Source: Oscillospiraceae bacterium (GTDB taxonomy: Bacteria; Bacillota; Clostridia; Oscillospirales; Oscillospiraceae). Taken from it: a stretch of 64,000 nt of DNA. The stretch is from assembly GCA_017538965.1 (NCBI GenBank), contig JAFYHU010000012.1, forward strand, positions 1-64,000, given 5' to 3'. Position numbers and translations under genes: made by a program. The stretch's first letter is position 1, and each line of letters opens with the position of its first letter. Under the pieces are notes generated by a model that ran no database searches, was not told the DNA's origin, and was given only the letters and a program-made list of their open reading frames with translations. Of this stretch, positions 2,552 to 64,000 are shown in pieces.

Positions 2552-3991
2552 ATGGAAAACACATCCCCCGCTCCGCTGAAGCTGAACGTCCGCCGGACCG
2601 CCCTCATCGGTTTTGCCTTCTTCGGCATCCTGCTTCTCTGGCAGGTCTACGACTCGTGGTGTCCTACCTTCCTGACCGACATTTTCGCCCGGAACATCTA
2701 TGAGATGTCCTCGGCCGAACTGAAGGCCAGCGACCCGGGCAAGATTCTGAACGTCCAGTGGATCGTCGGCATCATCATGGCCTGCGACAATCTGGCCGCG
2801 CTGATCCTGCTGCCGATCTTCGGAAATCTGTCCGACAGAACCGTCACGCCTATCGGCAAGCGCATGCCCTATATTCTGGTCGGAACCTTCGTGTCGGCAA
2901 TCGCTTTTCCGTTCATTCCCCTCTTTTTCCACTACAACAACATTGTCGGCATGGTCATCACCATGGGCATTGTCCTGATCTTCATGATGATGTACCGCAA
3001 TCCGGCCGTCGCGCTGATGCCGGACATCACGCCCAAGCCCCTGCGCGCCAGGGCCAACGGCATCATCAACATCATGGGCTACTTCGGCGGCGCCTTTGCG
3101 ACGGTGCTCGGGATTTTTCTGGTCCTGAGCAGCTACATCAACGCCCCGGTCGCCGAGCGGAACATCTGGACCATCGAGCTCCCCTTCATCATCGCTTCGG
3201 TCCTGATGGTCATCTCCGCGCTGGTGCTCTTTGCGACGATCAAGGAAAATAAAATCGAGGAAGAGATCCGGGACGAGCTGGAACTCGGTGAAAAGCTCGC
3301 CGCGGTCGAGACGCCCATCGATGACGACAAGCCGATGTCCAAGGCCAACAAGACCATGCTGCTGGCCATTCTCGGCGCGGAATTCCTCTGGTTCATGTCC
3401 GACAACGCGCTGGGCACCTACATCGGCAACTATGTCATCTATCATCTTCAGTCGGTCTCGAGCGCAACCATGATCCTGACGATCCTCGGCGGTCTCGCTT
3501 CGGTCATCGGCTTCGCCATTGCCGGCGGCATCGCCGACCGTATCGGCCGCAAGTGGACAATCTCATCGGGTCTCGCGATCACCTTTGTCGGTCTGGTCGT
3601 CATGTGCTTTGTCGCACCGACCGGGAAGGTCGTCGGCGAGCGCGGCGAATTCGCCTTCCCCACGCTGCTCTATGCGGTGTGGGTGCTGAAAGGTTTCGGG
3701 ATGGCGCTGGTGCACAACTGCTCGTTCCCGATGGTCGTGGAGCTTTGCTCGTCCAAGAAGATCGGGAAATTCACCGGCTACTATTACACCGCCAGCATGT
3801 CCGCCCAGACCATCACGCCGGTTCTGCTCGGTCTGGTCCTGAACGCCACGCTGGCCTGGCGCACCCTGCCGGTCTATGCCGCGATCCTGACAGCGCTGAG
3901 CTTTGCGGTGTTCACCTTGCTCGTCAAGAATATCAAAGTATCGAAGGTCCCCACCGTGACCGGTCTGGAAGCGCTGGACGGCGGAGACTGA
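2552..3991 (+). CDS. MFS transporter (GPH/SLC45-like, probable sugar symporter)
   Basis: Integral membrane transporter, 479 aa, with about 12 hydrophobic segments in two six-helix halves separated by a charged cytoplasmic loop near residues 230-265. The first loop contains the GNLSDRTVTPIGKRMPYI stretch (G-[x]-LSD-R...GKR), typical of the GPH/SLC45-like branch of the major facilitator superfamily. The second half has a matching GGIADRIGRKW motif. The start ATG follows GAGAGG. It is followed 13 nt later by a glycerophosphodiesterase, so the two may be co-transcribed. The substrate cannot be read from the sequence; family members carry sugars or glycosides with H+ or Na+. Confidence 0.85.
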   Translation: MENTSPAPLKLNVRRTALIGFAFFGILLLWQVYDSWCPTFLTDIFARNIYEMSSAELKASDPGKILNVQWIVGIIMACDNLAALILLPIFGNLSDRTVTPIGKRMPYILVGTFVSAIAFPFIPLFFHYNNIVGMVITMGIVLIFMMMYRNPAVALMPDITPKPLRARANGIINIMGYFGGAFATVLGIFLVLSSYINAPVAERNIWTIELPFIIASVLMVISALVLFATIKENKIEEEIRDELELGEKLAAVETPIDDDKPMSKANKTMLLAILGAEFLWFMSDNALGTYIGNYVIYHLQSVSSATMILTILGGLASVIGFAIAGGIADRIGRKWTISSGLAITFVGLVVMCFVAPTGKVVGERGEFAFPTLLYAVWVLKGFGMALVHNCSFPMVVELCSSKKIGKFTGYYYTASMSAQTITPVLLGLVLNATLAWRTLPVYAAILTALSFAVFTLLVKNIKVSKVPTVTGLEALDGGD

Positions 3992-4004
3992 GAGGAGCCC
4001 TGCA

Positions 4005-4832
4005 ATGAATCGCAAACTGCTGAAACCGCTCCTCGGCCTGTCGGCTGCGGCCGTACTGCTGCCGCTGTATGCCGCAGCGCCCGGCCATGCCAGCCGCCGG
4101 CAGAAGGAGATCTTCCGCGGCGTTAACTATGCCCACCGCGGGCTGCATACGCGGGATAAAGCAATCCCGGAGAACTCGCTGGAGGCCTTTCGGCGGGCCG
4201 CCCGGGAGGGCTACGGCATCGAGTTGGACGTTCAACTCTCAAAGGACGGCGAAGTCGTGGTCTTCCATGACGACACGCTGGACCGCGTCTGCGGTGTGCA
4301 CGCGCGCGTGGACGAGCTGACCTGGAAGGAACTGCAGGAGCTCCGTCTCTGCGGAAGCGAAGAGGGTATCCCTCTGTTCTCGGAGGTGCTGAAAAACATC
4401 CGCGGCTGCGAAGCCCTGATCGTCGAACTGAAGAACGGACCGCGCAACCGCGAACTCTGTGAAAAGACCTACTCCCTGCTGACCGCCTATCACGGCAATG
4501 TGTGCATCGAAAGCTTCAACCCGCTGATCGTCGCGTGGTTCCGCTTCCACGCCCCGGATCTGATCCGCGGTCAGTTGGCCACTTCGATGAAGAACTACGC
4601 CGAAGACGGCATCACCGGGCTGAAGGCCTTTCTGCTGCACAACACCCTGCTGAACTTTCTGGCAAGACCGCAGTTCGTCGCCTACCGCATCGGCTATCGT
4701 CCGCCGCTGGTGCGGCTGTGCACGCGGCTCGGCGCGCTGAACATCTGCTGGACCTCGCATGAGCCGCGCAACGAAAAGGGACGCGACGCCGTCATTTTCG
4801 AATTCTACCGTCCCCGCCAGCGCTATCGCTGA
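4005..4832 (+). CDS. Glycerophosphodiester phosphodiesterase
   Basis: Hydrolyses glycerophosphodiesters to glycerol-3-phosphate and an alcohol. 275 aa with an N-terminal hydrophobic segment (about residues 7-25) that could be an uncleaved signal anchor. GDPD signatures are YAHRGLHTRD (catalytic His-Arg), ENSLEAFRRAAREGYGIELDVQLSKDG split into E-N-S and E-L-D, and VVFHDDTLDRVCG. The TIM-barrel continues through VELKNGP and ESFNPLIVAWFR. A ribosome site (GAGAGGAG) lies upstream. It follows the MFS gene closely and ends 24 nt before a strong terminator. Confidence 0.9.
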   Translation: MNRKLLKPLLGLSAAAVLLPLYAAAPGHASRRQKEIFRGVNYAHRGLHTRDKAIPENSLEAFRRAAREGYGIELDVQLSKDGEVVVFHDDTLDRVCGVHARVDELTWKELQELRLCGSEEGIPLFSEVLKNIRGCEALIVELKNGPRNRELCEKTYSLLTAYHGNVCIESFNPLIVAWFRFHAPDLIRGQLATSMKNYAEDGITGLKAFLLHNTLLNFLARPQFVAYRIGYRPPLVRLCTRLGALNICWTSHEPRNEKGRDAVIFEFYRPRQRYR

Positions 4833-59112: not shown

Positions 59113-59934
59113 TCATAAAGATTTGATTTTCAGCAATTCGCCCCACGTAAGCGGGCCGACAATGCCATCCGGTTTCAGACCCTTGTCGGTCTGGTATGCC
59201 TTGACGCGCTCGGTCAGGAAGGTGCCGAAGTAGCTGTCGGTGTAGTGCACACCGTACTCCTGCGCCTTCAGCAGCGAGCTGAGCACTTCCACGTCCGGTC
59301 CCTTCATTCCCTCGCAGATGACGCGCGGAGGCCAGTACTCGTGCGTCGGCATGATCGCCGGGGTGATCACCGCCGAGGCGCTGCCGCCCTGATCGGGCGT
59401 AGCCGTCGCGATCTCCGAGGCGTCAACCGCCGTACCGGCAAGCTCGCCCTGCAGACGCTGCGCGGACTTGTACCGGGCGTCGACATTGTTGTACGTGGGG
59501 CGCTCGTACTGCTTGCACACCGCCTCGGTGCAGGCATACAGATTGTCCGAGGTCTTGAGCATCTGGAACAGGCCGGCATACTCGCCCTCGGTCTTGAGCT
59601 CCTGCAGAGCGAACCGCGTCTGCATGATCTCGCTGTCCAGCGTCAGCCCCGACGCCTTCCAGAACTCCCACAGCTTCCGTTTTCGATAGGCCAGCGTCCA
59701 CTGGGCCAGACCGAAGCCCTTGCTGTCCGCGGCGAAACTCTCCTTGCTCAGCGCCCCGGAGGTCGCCCGCGCCACATAGTCCTTGCTCGATGTGCGGTTC
59801 TGGCCGAAATCCCCCTGCAGCCGTCCCGGCTCCAGATTGGATTCGCAGTCCCAGTTCCCCATCATGCCAAAGGCACCGGCATCGGTCAGGCCGCCCTGCC
59901 GGAGCAGCGCGTAGATCTTCTCGTTTCTGGTCAT
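59113..59934 (-). CDS. Phage tail-type lysozyme / endolysin with peptidoglycan-binding domain
   Basis: 273 aa. The N-terminal phage-tail-lysozyme domain (~1-150) has IYALLRQGGLTDAGAFGMMGNWDCESNLEPGRLQGD and GFGLAQWTLAYRKRKLWEFW. The C-terminal ~65 residues are a PG_binding_1 domain (PDVEVLSSLLKAQEYGVHYTDSYFGTFLTERVKAYQTDKGLKPDGIVGPLTW). Hydrolyses peptidoglycan at host lysis. It overlaps the upstream membrane-protein gene by ATGA. Confidence 0.9.
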   Translation of the reverse strand: MTRNEKIYALLRQGGLTDAGAFGMMGNWDCESNLEPGRLQGDFGQNRTSSKDYVARATSGALSKESFAADSKGFGLAQWTLAYRKRKLWEFWKASGLTLDSEIMQTRFALQELKTEGEYAGLFQMLKTSDNLYACTEAVCKQYERPTYNNVDARYKSAQRLQGELAGTAVDASEIATATPDQGGSASAVITPAIMPTHEYWPPRVICEGMKGPDVEVLSSLLKAQEYGVHYTDSYFGTFLTERVKAYQTDKGLKPDGIVGPLTWGELLKIKSL

Positions 59935-60836: not shown

Positions 60837-61157
60837 TCACACCTCCAGATCCACGCCGGTCATGGCGGCGATGTACTCGATGTCCGCCTGCAGCTGCGCC
60901 ACGCTTTTCACGCGGGGCGGCTGCCATTCGGCGGCATACTCGAACCACGATTCGAAATCTTCCTCGATCTCTTCCTCATCGGGGGCGTCGCTGTCTGGGC
61001 ATTCCATGAACGCCTCGCTGCACTCCCAGTGCGTGCTTTCCTCTTCCGGATCGGGTACCTCCTGATGATCGCTGCGGAGAAAGATCCGCGCGATGCCGTT
61101 TCGGATGTCGATCTCAATGTCCCGCTGTTTTTCTGCTGACTGACTTACGCAGAGCAT
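60837..61157 (-). CDS. Acidic phage protein adjacent to DGR reverse transcriptase
   Basis: 106 aa from ATG 61157, 12 nt into the RT 3' end, with GGAGGGATTTACT upstream. Strongly acidic in the middle (PDSDAPDEEEIEEDFESW), with a short beta-like N terminus. It is not the basic four-helix Avd protein expected of a DGR. Role unknown; XkdW/tail-assembly-like proteins have similar composition. Confidence 0.65.
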   Translation of the reverse strand: MLCVSQSAEKQRDIEIDIRNGIARIFLRSDHQEVPDPEEESTHWECSEAFMECPDSDAPDEEEIEEDFESWFEYAAEWQPPRVKSVAQLQADIEYIAAMTGVDLEV

Positions 61158-62329
61158 AGTAAATCCCTCCTCGCCTCCTGGGCTGTCAAAATGGATGCTT
61201 TCTTCTGGATTGCCTGTATGCTGATGACCGTTCCCTTTTCTGCTTCTGCTTCCTTCACCCTCCGCAGCTGACGGATGCCCGCCGCCTTGAAGAATCCGTA
61301 ATAGGCCGAAACCCTGCGCTGGATCTTCATGCGGTCGTCTCCTGCCGCCGAGCGCATGAACGCCCGCCGTGCCCGGATGAAGACGCGCGGCCGGATTCTG
61401 ATTCTGCCCCTCGCTGTGACCACATAGCCCATCATGTCGATGCCGCAGTCCGTGTGCTTCCGGATATGCCAGTCGGGCTTGACGTCCAGACTGAACGATG
61501 CCTTCATGAACCGGATCAGCTTCCGGACCGCCATCAGCAGGTTGCGCCGGTCGGTTCCGCACAGCAGGATATCGTCCATGTAGAACAGGGCGCAGCTGCA
61601 CAGCTGGACCGTCTTTCCGCGCCGCTCCTTGTGCAGGCCCATGACGTACCGGTAGGCGTAGCTCATGAAGTAGTTGCACAGGAACTGCGAGAGCAGGCTG
61701 CCGATGATCAGGCCGTCGCCGTGCATGCTGAGCAGGGAATCGACATACCAGAGCATGAGCTTGTTCTTGCCGATGTCCCGCCGCAGCCACTTCATGGCCG
61801 TTTCCCGGCTGAGGCTCTGAAAGCATTTCCGGATATCCAGCTTGACGAAGTATTTTGTCTTCCCGGCCTTGGTCCATTTCTGGATAGCCTTGACGCCCTT
61901 CAGCTGGCCCTTGCCCTTCAGGCTGGCGTACTGATGGTATTCGTACTTGGCGTCCCACAGATCTTTCATGCACCCGACCGCAACATGCTCCATGAGCTGC
62001 TGCATGACGGATTCGATGCCGATGATCCGGGTTTTCTTGCTGAGCCCGTCCGTCCGGACGGAGTAGCGGACCTCCTGCAGATCGAGGTCGCGGTTCCGGA
62101 TACGCAGGGAGATGTCCTGAGCGATCCGGTGCAGAGCTTGTTCCATTTCCTTGTACAGGCCGAGGCCCTCGTGCGCGCGCTTCCGGATTTCCCGTGCGTC
62201 CAGATCGCAGTACCGCGAGGCGAACGCGCTGTAATCCTTCCGGTTCAGCTTCGAGGACAGGGCCTCCCACAGAAAGGGTTCGATGGTCTTTACGTCAGAA
62301 GGGTCGACACTTCTGCAGTATGTTTTCAT
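61145..62329 (-). CDS. Diversity-generating retroelement reverse transcriptase
   Basis: 394 aa. Motifs: KYFVKLDIRKCF (Asp 165), IGSLLSQ at 209-215 (the DGR form of the usual QGxxxSP), FYMDDILL (YMDD at 250-253) and DMMGYVVT. The N-terminal ~90 residues form a basic RT-0-like region; the C-terminal end is basic. No maturase X/En domain, so it is not a group II intron RT. GGAGGGA precedes ATG. It lies 210 nt downstream of the template repeat on the same strand and would make mutagenised cDNA for VR. Confidence 0.93.
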   Translation of the reverse strand: MKTYCRSVDPSDVKTIEPFLWEALSSKLNRKDYSAFASRYCDLDAREIRKRAHEGLGLYKEMEQALHRIAQDISLRIRNRDLDLQEVRYSVRTDGLSKKTRIIGIESVMQQLMEHVAVGCMKDLWDAKYEYHQYASLKGKGQLKGVKAIQKWTKAGKTKYFVKLDIRKCFQSLSRETAMKWLRRDIGKNKLMLWYVDSLLSMHGDGLIIGSLLSQFLCNYFMSYAYRYVMGLHKERRGKTVQLCSCALFYMDDILLCGTDRRNLLMAVRKLIRFMKASFSLDVKPDWHIRKHTDCGIDMMGYVVTARGRIRIRPRVFIRARRAFMRSAAGDDRMKIQRRVSAYYGFFKAAGIRQLRRVKEAEAEKGTVISIQAIQKKASILTAQEARRDLLCSA

Positions 62330-62538: not shown

Positions 62539-62584
62539 AAATCCGCCCGCCGATGTTCCAGTTCGCGTTCGAGAGCCCGTTGTT
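62539..62584 (-). other. DGR template repeat, 3' exon (46 nt)
   Basis: Second part of TR. On the minus strand it begins AACAACGGGCTC and ends in ATCGGCGGGCGG plus ATTT. It aligns to VR 63002-63047; all differences are at TR adenines. The GC-rich end is the presumed IMH-like end of the repeat. Confidence 0.9.
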
Positions 62585-62767
62585 CCTTGATACCCACGGT
62601 TTCCCGGGGGAGTAGACTGTATCACCGTCTCAGAGAGACGCTCCTTGTCAGTCGTTCGGGCGTACTGTCAGTTGACGCCACGGGATTGCCCTGCCTCTTT
62701 CGAGGTTTAGGTTTCCCCCGTTATTCGGAGTTCAATCATATGTCGCCATATGAAGGGGCAATTGCTT
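62585..62767 (-). ncRNA. Group I intron (183 nt) interrupting the DGR template repeat
   Basis: The insertion splits TR exactly between GGT and AACAAC; joining the flanks gives an in-register match to VR. The 5' exon ends in U and the insert ends in G, the group I rule. Pairings visible by eye on the minus strand, in order: P2 (TCATAT/ATATGA), P3 (CTCC 62730-62727 with GGAG 62644-62641), P4 (ACGGG/CCCGT), J4/5 GGAAACCTAA, P5 (CCTC-GAAA-GAGG), J5/4 with GCAA, P6 (GGCGT/ACGCC), P7 (GACTG 62653-62649 with CAGTC 62619-62615), P8 (CGTCTC-TCT-GAGACG), J8/7 GTGATA, P9 with a GAAA tetraloop. P1 is weak (GGU with GCC). No ORF inside. Confidence 0.85.
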
Positions 62768-62830
62768 ACCGTTGCCGCAGGAGAGCCCGGCATTCGCGAC
62801 GCCGTTGTTCAGGTTGCCGAAGCGCTGCCA
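62768..62830 (-). other. DGR template repeat, 5' exon (63 nt)
   Basis: First part of TR, from TGG CAG CGC TTC to GGC AAC GGT on the minus strand. It aligns to VR 63048-63110. Adenine-rich AAC codons occupy the variable positions. Confidence 0.93.
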
Positions 62831-62960: not shown

Positions 62961-62976
62961 CTACGCGGCGGGCTGA
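62931..62976. repeat. Two inverted repeats just downstream of VR
   Basis: GGGGACG-TG-CGTCCCC (62931-62946) and TCAGCCC-N12-GGGCTGA (62951-62976, containing the stop codon of the target gene). DGR targets in other systems need a hairpin just after the repeat; these are candidates. Confidence 0.65.
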
Positions 62977-64000
62977 AATTCACCCCTGTTTCCGGTGACT
63001 GAAAGCCGCCCGCCGATGCCCCAGTACGCGTACGAGAGCCCGCTGTAACCGCGGCCGCAGGAGAGCCCGGCATTCGCGACGCCGACGTCCAGGGCGCCGA
63101 AGCGCGGCCACTCTCGTGTGCCGGTGGCGCTCTGCGCTTCCAGATAGAAGCCGTCACGCGGTCCGGCCGAGGAGCTGCCGACGATGTCGATCGGATAGAT
63201 CAGCTCCGGCAGGCCGCCGTCCTCGCGCATCTGCTTCGGATATTGCCATCCGGCGCTGCCCGGTTTCGGAACGCCGAAGCTCGCACCGATGTAATCTGAC
63301 GTGATGCTTTCTGCGATCTTTGAGGCGTCCCGGCAGATGTGCGCGGCCTCCACCGCCACACTGTTGATCGTCTCGTGATTGAGGATGGTGTCGCCGATAA
63401 CCTCGTAGCACCCGACCATATACTCGATGCCCTGTAGCCTGACGGGATATTTGCCATTCGACGGATTGATGCCGCCATCGCTGCCGAGGACGCCATCGGT
63501 CGAGCCGGTGTACCACTGCATGGTACAGAGATGGTTGCTGGTTGCGGTGTTGAAGGTCGTGCCGCCGTTGTCTACGTATACGGCGCCATAATCGGTACCG
63601 CCTACGTTCACGGTTTCCACCTTCTTGACCTTCACGCGATCAACAATGGCGGTGCCGCCTCTCGCGGATGTGCTCAGGTGTACGGTGCTTCCGACCAGAA
63701 TGTTCGCCGCCTGCGCTGTGGTGAGCAGAATGCGCTCCACGCCGGTTTCGGCTACGGCCGGTGTGTAGTCGTAATTGTAGTCGCAGCAGCCTACAAGGAT
63801 GCGGTCAGAATCCAGCCGACCATATTTCAGATATAGCATAAGCTGAAGGAACGCGCTGTCCGCACTGGTAAATCCGCAGTACCGGTTGCCCCACGCCGAA
63901 CGGATGCCGCTCCGGCAGGTGTTGTGGCTGACGTTGAAGACTTTCACCTTCTGGTTGCTGCAGCAGGTCCAGCCTTCCCCGGCGCTGTACTTCCCGTGCA
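62961..64000 (-). CDS. DGR target: phage tail/receptor-binding protein, C-terminal part
   Basis: The frame is open to the window edge, so the 5' end is missing; at least 346 residues are visible. The last ~50 residues hold the variable repeat (TREWPRFGALDVGVANAGLS, CGRGYSGLSYAYWGIGGR), with W-x-R-F and YWGIGGR typical of the C-type-lectin/FGE-like fold used by DGR variable proteins. The part before it (GPRDGFYLEAQSATG) is the usual fold lead-in. Presumably a tail-tip adhesin whose ligand site is diversified. Confidence 0.85.
   Translation of the reverse strand, partial: HGKYSAGEGWTCCSNQKVKVFNVSHNTCRSGIRSAWGNRYCGFTSADSAFLQLMLYLKYGRLDSDRILVGCCDYNYDYTPAVAETGVERILLTTAQAANILVGSTVHLSTSARGGTAIVDRVKVKKVETVNVGGTDYGAVYVDNGGTTFNTATSNHLCTMQWYTGSTDGVLGSDGGINPSNGKYPVRLQGIEYMVGCYEVIGDTILNHETINSVAVEAAHICRDASKIAESITSDYIGASFGVPKPGSAGWQYPKQMREDGGLPELIYPIDIVGSSSAGPRDGFYLEAQSATGTREWPRFGALDVGVANAGLSCGRGYSGLSYAYWGIGGRLSVTGNRGEFQPAA
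63002..63110 (-). other. DGR variable repeat (VR)
   Basis: 109 nt, the same length as the spliced TR (63 + 46). It differs from TR at 15 positions, every one an adenine in TR: for example AAC to GCC, GAC, GTC, CGC, TAC, AGC and GGC, and CAG to CCG. Eleven codons are changed. Confidence 0.95.

Follow-up and report, generated by a model that had tools for sequence, protein, structure and literature searches.

A putative group I intron that naturally interrupts a DGR template repeat and is absent from the VR

The DGR and the boundaries of the insert

How can the variable repeat (VR) of a diversity-generating retroelement (DGR) lack an insert of 183 nt that interrupts its template repeat (TR)? 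This question was raised by a DGR located at the right-hand end of the window, i.e., the whole stretch of 64,000 nt that was analyzed, which comprises a target gene with the VR, the TR, and an RT. The DGR and all other features of the window described below are on the minus strand. The RT (394 aa, 61145..62329) matched PF00078 and PHROG 1423, and it contains YMDD as well as the motif IGSLLSQ, which is invariant across 11 RT sequences (alignment A1) and fits the DGR RT motif (I/V/L)GxxxSQ given in the accessible part of PMC3521204. The C-terminal part of the VR-bearing target gene occupies 62961..64000 (phrog_17147 and phrog_5302 tail, stop at 62961), and its ORF extends beyond the window to contig position 64652. 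The VR at 63110-63002 is located at the C-terminal end of this ORF, as expected for a DGR. No Avd was named among the five ORFs that were compared with Pfam. An endolysin gene (59934..59113) adjoins the DGR, and because of this neighbor and the tail-type target gene the setting suggests that the DGR resides in a prophage.

The initial annotation had described 183 nt that interrupt the TR and are missing from the VR, and this was verified for 62767..62585. The 5' exon of the TR has 63 nt and ends with ...GGCAACGGT (62768..62830), the 3' exon has 46 nt and begins with AACAACGGG (62539..62584), both according to the TR/VR alignment, and the TR thus totals 109 nt and spans 62830..62539 including the insert. 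The insert itself (62585..62767) has the ends AAGCAATTGCCCC...GTATCAAGG, also written AAGCAATTG...GTATCAAGG, with the omega G of a group I intron at 62585. The VR (63002..63110) also has 109 nt, contains no intron, and has GGT at the junction. When the insert was omitted, the TR could be aligned with the VR over all 109 nt without a gap, and the colinearity that had been noted for excision of 62585-62767 was indeed found. The two repeats differ at 14 positions within the first 105 nt, each of them a TR adenine, eight before and six after the junction.

By reading, the joined product would remain the same if the junction were shifted by 0 to 2 nt in the 3' direction; the junctions were placed at 62768/62767 and 62585/62584 because of the U^/G^ rule. 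The exon end U and the intron end G that had been noted for the insert are present as the U of a U-G pair in P1 and as the terminal omega G. Also as described, the insert of 183 nt has no endonuclease ORF (HEG). Neither the insert nor the TR was found a second time in its own genome (91 contigs, 93.9% complete; the contig with the DGR has 94,173 nt), and a second, intron-free TR was found neither in this genome nor in the records of the three related loci with inserts, L004, L010, and L012, which may be fragments.

Occupied and empty TR sites in related DGRs

The same site was compared in 25 RT loci, i.e., the window, 19 IMG/VR (viral) loci, and five loci in GTDB genomes. The IMG/VR relatives stem from metagenomes, presumably mostly of the rumen, judging by sample numbers and RUG names. 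The TR site was visible in 23 of the 25 loci; the contigs fetched for L011 and L019 do not contain a TR. Homologous inserts are present in four of these 23 TRs (window, L004, L010, and L012), and the other 19 TRs are uninterrupted. The search for related TRs with and without the insert that had been suggested at the outset therefore yielded three occupied and 19 empty sites besides the window. The inserts of the three relatives are at a position identical to that in the window and have lengths of 187 nt (L004) and 193 nt (L010 and L012, mutually identical), compared to 183 nt in the window, and the occupied TRs thus represent only three distinct intron alleles.

In the RT tree, L004 clusters with the empty L013 and L023 (100/100), and L010, L012, and L011 cluster with the empty L014 (100/100). 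The RT of the window has no definite place in this tree. Because occupied and empty TRs intermix, the intron must have been gained or lost repeatedly, and the starred branches require at least three such gains or losses.

Further occupied sites were searched for with the pattern of an insert ending in G at the TR site. It recovered 12 stretches, three of which are the known intron-bearing contigs. The other nine are repeat-like, have differing codons at the site, and did not match model R1, and they were rejected. For nine further DGR loci, the RTs of which are distant (L064-L072), the screen was made with model R1 alone. A comparison of the insert DNA with 50,697 phage records resulted in one match of 24 nt. 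As DNA, the insert was found among 99 genomes only in its own genome, and the same was true for model R1 with stricter filters in 394 genomes of the order and in 102 genomes of the genus. The RT was detected in 400 genomes of the family (E <= 1e-80) only in its own and one other genome.

Two loci of the comparison showed peculiarities. L018 has at the TR position a repeat (3688-3796) with only 10 adenines in the first 105 nt, which resembles the TR of L017 after mutation at adenines, and the RTs of L017 and L018 are identical. This looks like a TR that has overwritten itself or like a chimeric assembly. In L007 (1515-1620) the alignment of VR and TR has a gap of 3 nt near the equivalent of the intron site; the TR of L007 is uninterrupted.

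TR markers in intron-free VRs

The TR could be compared with a full VR in 18 DGRs, including L018 though its TR looks mutated. L005, L007, L009, L021, and L027 were excluded because their fetched loci contain no VR, an incomplete one, or one with gaps; L021 also has a partial TR of 100 nt. Immediately upstream of the splice site, all four occupied TRs have a T and all 19 empty TRs have a C (GGT versus GGC). In all 18 DGRs the VR matches its own TR at the junction, with GGT in the four occupied and GGC in the 14 empty cases. As the four occupied cases are three TR alleles, the link of GGT to the intron does not represent many independent events.

A comparison with a near twin, the empty L023, was possible for L004. 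The two differ at five TR positions (-18, -16, -13, -7, and -1), which are all in the 5' exon beside the intron, and each of the five differences is mirrored in the respective VR. The VR of L004 is intron-free. Between VR and TR, L004 and L023 have three differences in about 166 nt (own count). The pattern resembles retrohoming, because the VR and TR tracts changed together and the sequence between them hardly changed; ordinary recombination at both tracts would, strictly speaking, be an alternative. Relative to L013, the VR of L004 has the letter of the L004 TR at all seven differences, and the VR of L013 has the letter of its own TR at six of the seven, the seventh being a template adenine. 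L004 has a single TR/VR difference at a position other than adenine.

L010 and L012 have identical TRs with identical introns of 193 nt, and the two loci are 98.65% identical over 6303 aligned nt. Their VRs differ at 13 positions, all of which correspond to TR adenines, five before and eight after the junction. Also the three distinct intron-bearing TR alleles, which have 10, 8, and 14 pairwise non-adenine differences, have each of these differences mirrored in their own VRs.

These results bear on the possibility that the intron entered the TR recently, that the VR was last written before this event, and that the insert has made the DGR defective. The intron-free VR of the window alone would be compatible with such a history, and the mixture of occupied and empty TRs in the RT tree, with its minimum of three changes, speaks for repeated gains or losses. 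However, the intron-linked GGT is found in the VR of each of the four occupied DGRs, the 5'-exon markers of L004 are present in its VR, and the VRs of L010 and L012 differ at 13 adenine positions behind an identical TR and intron. These marker data would be difficult to reconcile with a DGR that is dead or with a VR that predates the intron, and a recent entry is considered very improbable. The L004 marker transfer and the VR differences behind an identical TR and intron in L010 and L012 agree with the initial proposal that splicing precedes the replacement of the VR. They support the view that the VR is written from cDNA of spliced TR RNA, and splicing as a required step appears to be well supported by the repeats.

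Structure of the intron and compensatory changes

The predicted structure of the insert begins with P1, in which the IGS GCC (62757..62759) pairs with the exon GGU and forms the U-G pair at the splice site (by eye). P2 with a GCGA loop (62737..62752) is followed by the 5' strand of P3, CTCC (62727..62730, partner 62641-62644), the P4-P5 domain with ACGGG/CCCGT, CCT/GGG, and P5a CCTC GAAA GAGG (62680..62721), and P6/P6a, GGCGT...ACGCC (62659..62679), and P3, P4-P5, and P6 were supported by pair counts. The 5' strand of P7, A[C]GACTG (62649..62655), pairs with CAGTCT (62614-62619). P8, CGTCTC TCT GAGACG (62626..62640), is followed by J8/7, GTGATA (62620..62625, by reading), and P9 with a GAAA loop (62593..62610, by eye and without a pair count). 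P1 has only 3 bp, and P10 of the TR introns has, by reading, about 2 bp. Each of the three TR intron alleles terminates in GG^. An alternative P1, in which the exon GGCAA pairs with UUGCC, was rejected, as by reading this pairing is disrupted in both L004 and L010.

The pairs were counted in an alignment of five introns (A4), which contained the three TR introns and two relatives after removal of their endonuclease ORF. P2-P8, with the P3/P7 pseudoknot counted, comprise 39 pairs, which are standard in 195 of 195 cells, compared to 32-47% of cells paired in slid controls; the percentage of paired cells is biased towards the structure because it was drawn from these same sequences. The two-sided changes are the stronger evidence: They occur at 14 of the 39 pairs, compared to a mean of 4.9 after shuffling, and none of 500 shuffles was as high. 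The result of 0 of 500 shuffles was obtained on two measures, paired cells and two-sided changes. The number of further pair types was unexceptional, because 87 of 500 shuffles were as high. The two-sided changes affect five of the six pairs of P2 and three of the six pairs of P8, and P3 covaries at one pair.

In a comparison of ten introns, P3 changed from CTCC/GGAG to CTTC/GAAG and CACC/GGTG, P4 changed from ACGGG/CCCGT to TCGGG/CCCGA, and P6 and P8 changed repeatedly with compensation. P3 of L046 was cut at 3 bp by the script. Three mismatches were seen, one in P4 of L045 and one each in L044 and L046, where the script's delimitation of P8 left the innermost pair mismatched. Covariation does not support P7, because it is invariant in every intron seen, and its identity in L043-L046 and L048 is partly due to selection, because these introns were found with a pattern including P7. 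The invariant A[C]GACUG/CAGUCU resembles the canonical G-binding site.

By eye, the initial annotation had assigned P2 to P9 in canonical order. For P2 to P8 this was borne out by the pair counts; P9, J8/7, and the GAAA loops of P5 and P9 agree with it by reading only. The claimed P3/P7 pseudoknot withstood the comparison, as P3 and P7 form in all five aligned introns, with an invariant P7. The GCGA loop of P2 was an addition, and J4/5 had to be revised, because GGAAA is a better assignment than GAAACCTAA. The folding energy of the insert is moderately low (z -2.55), and by reading the minimum-energy fold includes the pairings of P2, P8, P9, and P7 and lacks P4.

The intron family in other phage genes and the class assignment

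More members of the intron family were found in phage contigs with patterns derived from the core. A tight core pattern had no match, and looser patterns recovered the family. In L033, the intron splits a phage gene that is RNAP-like (Pfam RdRP, E 1.6e-5; PHROG 8308 across both halves). The gene with L041 has similar residues, and L043, L044, and L048 have similar flanking codons, which we read as the same RNAP-like gene. L046 is located between ORFs that match domains of the DNA polymerase III alpha subunit, and L045 adjoins an ORF that matches a phage minor tail protein. By reading, the RNAP-like gene remains in frame when the cuts are made after U and after GG, and this rule is common to the TR. 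By eye, the TR introns, L033, L043, L044, and L048 form P1 with GGU/GCC, and L041, the exon of which differs, forms it with GCU/GGC.

L033 and L041 contain GIY-YIG ORFs in the P5 region, which extend into the 3' core. Relatives of the L033 endonuclease were detected in five of ten records, i.e., those of L033, L032/L041, L043, L048, and L045. The relative in L043 has one internal TAG, and those in L045 are weak (E 9e-6 and 6e-4) and are found elsewhere in the record. No relative was found in the records of L044 or L046, nor in the window's own genome or the L010/L012 records (E <= 0.001).

Additional elements were observed in three of these records. At 433-1430 of L041, upstream and in what is apparently the same RNAP-like gene, there is another group I-like element, which is more divergent and has an ORF of 239 aa without a Pfam match; its match to R1 is weak (20 bits). 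L045 has two R1 matches about 130 nt apart (3899-4092 and 4226-4379) beside the ORF for the minor tail protein, and neither contains an ORF of at least 110 aa. The P5 region of the L044 family intron (3030-3294, minus strand) is extended by a long stretch, in which a tRNA was suspected; ARAGORN detected none.

The search with the Rfam model Intron_gpI, which had been proposed as a check, yielded no match for the insert, neither at the gathering threshold nor at E values up to 10, and no match for L033 at E values up to 1. As a positive control, the model (RF00028) found the T4 nrdD intron with 105 bits. Because the control matched, the miss is a property of the model and of this intron family. 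In the accessible part of PMC11878797 the Rfam group I model is described as clearly incomplete, with a seed that lacks the subgroups ID and IE, and it is stated there that phage variants may be missed by models trained on group I databases. Despite the Rfam result, the initial assignment of the insert to the group I introns is supported by the covariation, by the P1/omega-G rule for the junctions, and by endonuclease-bearing homologues in other genes of phages, and the insert may be regarded as a group I intron.

Discussion

What can be read directly from the DNA comprises the anatomy of the locus, the intron family, its structural conservation, and the occurrence of exon markers linked to the intron in VRs that lack it. 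Very probably, the TR of this prophage DGR contains an ORF-less, compact group I intron of a phage family, which self-splices before reverse transcription and is hence missing from the VR. In such a pathway, the TR RNA would be transcribed with the intron included. The ribozyme would then excise itself and join the exons, making use of P1 (exon GGU and IGS GCC) and of the terminal G. The DGR RT would copy the spliced TR of 109 nt with randomization at the adenines, and the cDNA would replace the VR and leave no intron. Because adenine mutagenesis hits the cDNA and not the TR DNA, the exon sequences required by the intron would stay intact.

We infer that the insert is removed by self-splicing of the RNA rather than by another route, and that splicing comes before reverse transcription. 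The RT might instead copy unspliced RNA, and the intron might be lost by template jumping or by recombination between cDNA and VR. The insert is highly structured, and the flanking homology between TR and VR could conceivably loop it out. But the junctions are exact in all four VRs, the U^/G^ junctions by reading also fit the relatives in protein genes, for which splicing is the expected route, and the structure is maintained by compensation, which would be needless for a passive insert. Loss during or after copying is thus judged to be as improbable as the recent entry of the intron. It is hardly conceivable that the insert is another structured mobile element, for which the missing Rfam match might speak, in view of the pseudoknotted P3-P8 architecture, the U^/omega G ends, the IGS pairing that by reading varies with the site (GCU/GGC in L041), the GIY-YIG ORF that two relatives have within their P5 region, and the incompleteness of the Rfam model, by which phage variants may be missed (PMC11878797, accessible part).

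A further step would be that the self-splicing intron is a working part of the DGR, and that the efficiency of splicing or a signal gates the hypermutation of the tail-type protein. This is a speculative and rather unlikely extension. If it were true, the GGU change of the exon in template and target would be a mark of co-evolution of DGR and intron.

An intron in a DGR template has an experimental precedent. Guo et al. (2008) reportedly engineered the td intron into the template of the Bordetella BPP-1 DGR and thereby proved an RNA intermediate. Common to both cases are a group I intron in the TR and a VR that receives only the spliced sequence together with exon markers. In contrast to the engineered case, the intron described here is natural, belongs to another intron family, is found in several phage lineages, and is accompanied by a change of the exon. 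The native TR of BPP-1 is said to be uninterrupted, unlike the TR of the window. According to the accessible part of PMC3240598, the BPP-1 DGR contains an RT, a TR, and a VR at the 3' end of the target gene, and the changes are adenine-specific. The window DGR has the same layout of RT, TR, and VR and also adenine-specific changes.

The T4 td intron is a phage group I intron with a GIY-YIG endonuclease, and the T4 nrdD intron is annotated with I-TevII. Bastillevirinae phages also have group I introns with GIY-YIG endonucleases (PMC11878797, accessible part). The introns described here share with these the ribozyme core plan, the phage host, and the presence of family members with endonuclease ORFs; in contrast, the TR introns have no ORF, are only 183-193 nt long, reside in a non-coding retroelement template, and are missed by RF00028. 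An ORF-less group I intron of Clostridioides difficile responds to c-di-GMP (accessible part of PMC8987985). It is likewise HEG-less, and the regulatory role belongs to the C. difficile intron.

No natural intron in a DGR TR was found in the open literature, which is weak evidence of absence because most subscription papers are outside of it. An intron in a TR is not described in the accessible parts of PMC3240598, PMC7517822, PMC4372165, PMC3521204, PMC8867640, PMC8144416, PMC12386605, PMC11054128, and PMC10612066.

Taken together, there is good evidence at the sequence level that a group I intron occurs naturally in the template of a DGR and is removed before homing. More phage group I introns were uncovered, and the Rfam model is blind to the two cases tested, the insert and L033. 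Repeat searches that assume uninterrupted TRs may mis-annotate such loci. The lineages with and without the template intron, with exon markers that report the transfer, are a natural counterpart of the RNA-intermediate experiment and would offer a natural reporter for the step from TR transcript to cDNA. If splicing is confirmed, the template of a retroelement can host a ribozyme, the removal of which has to precede mutagenic homing.
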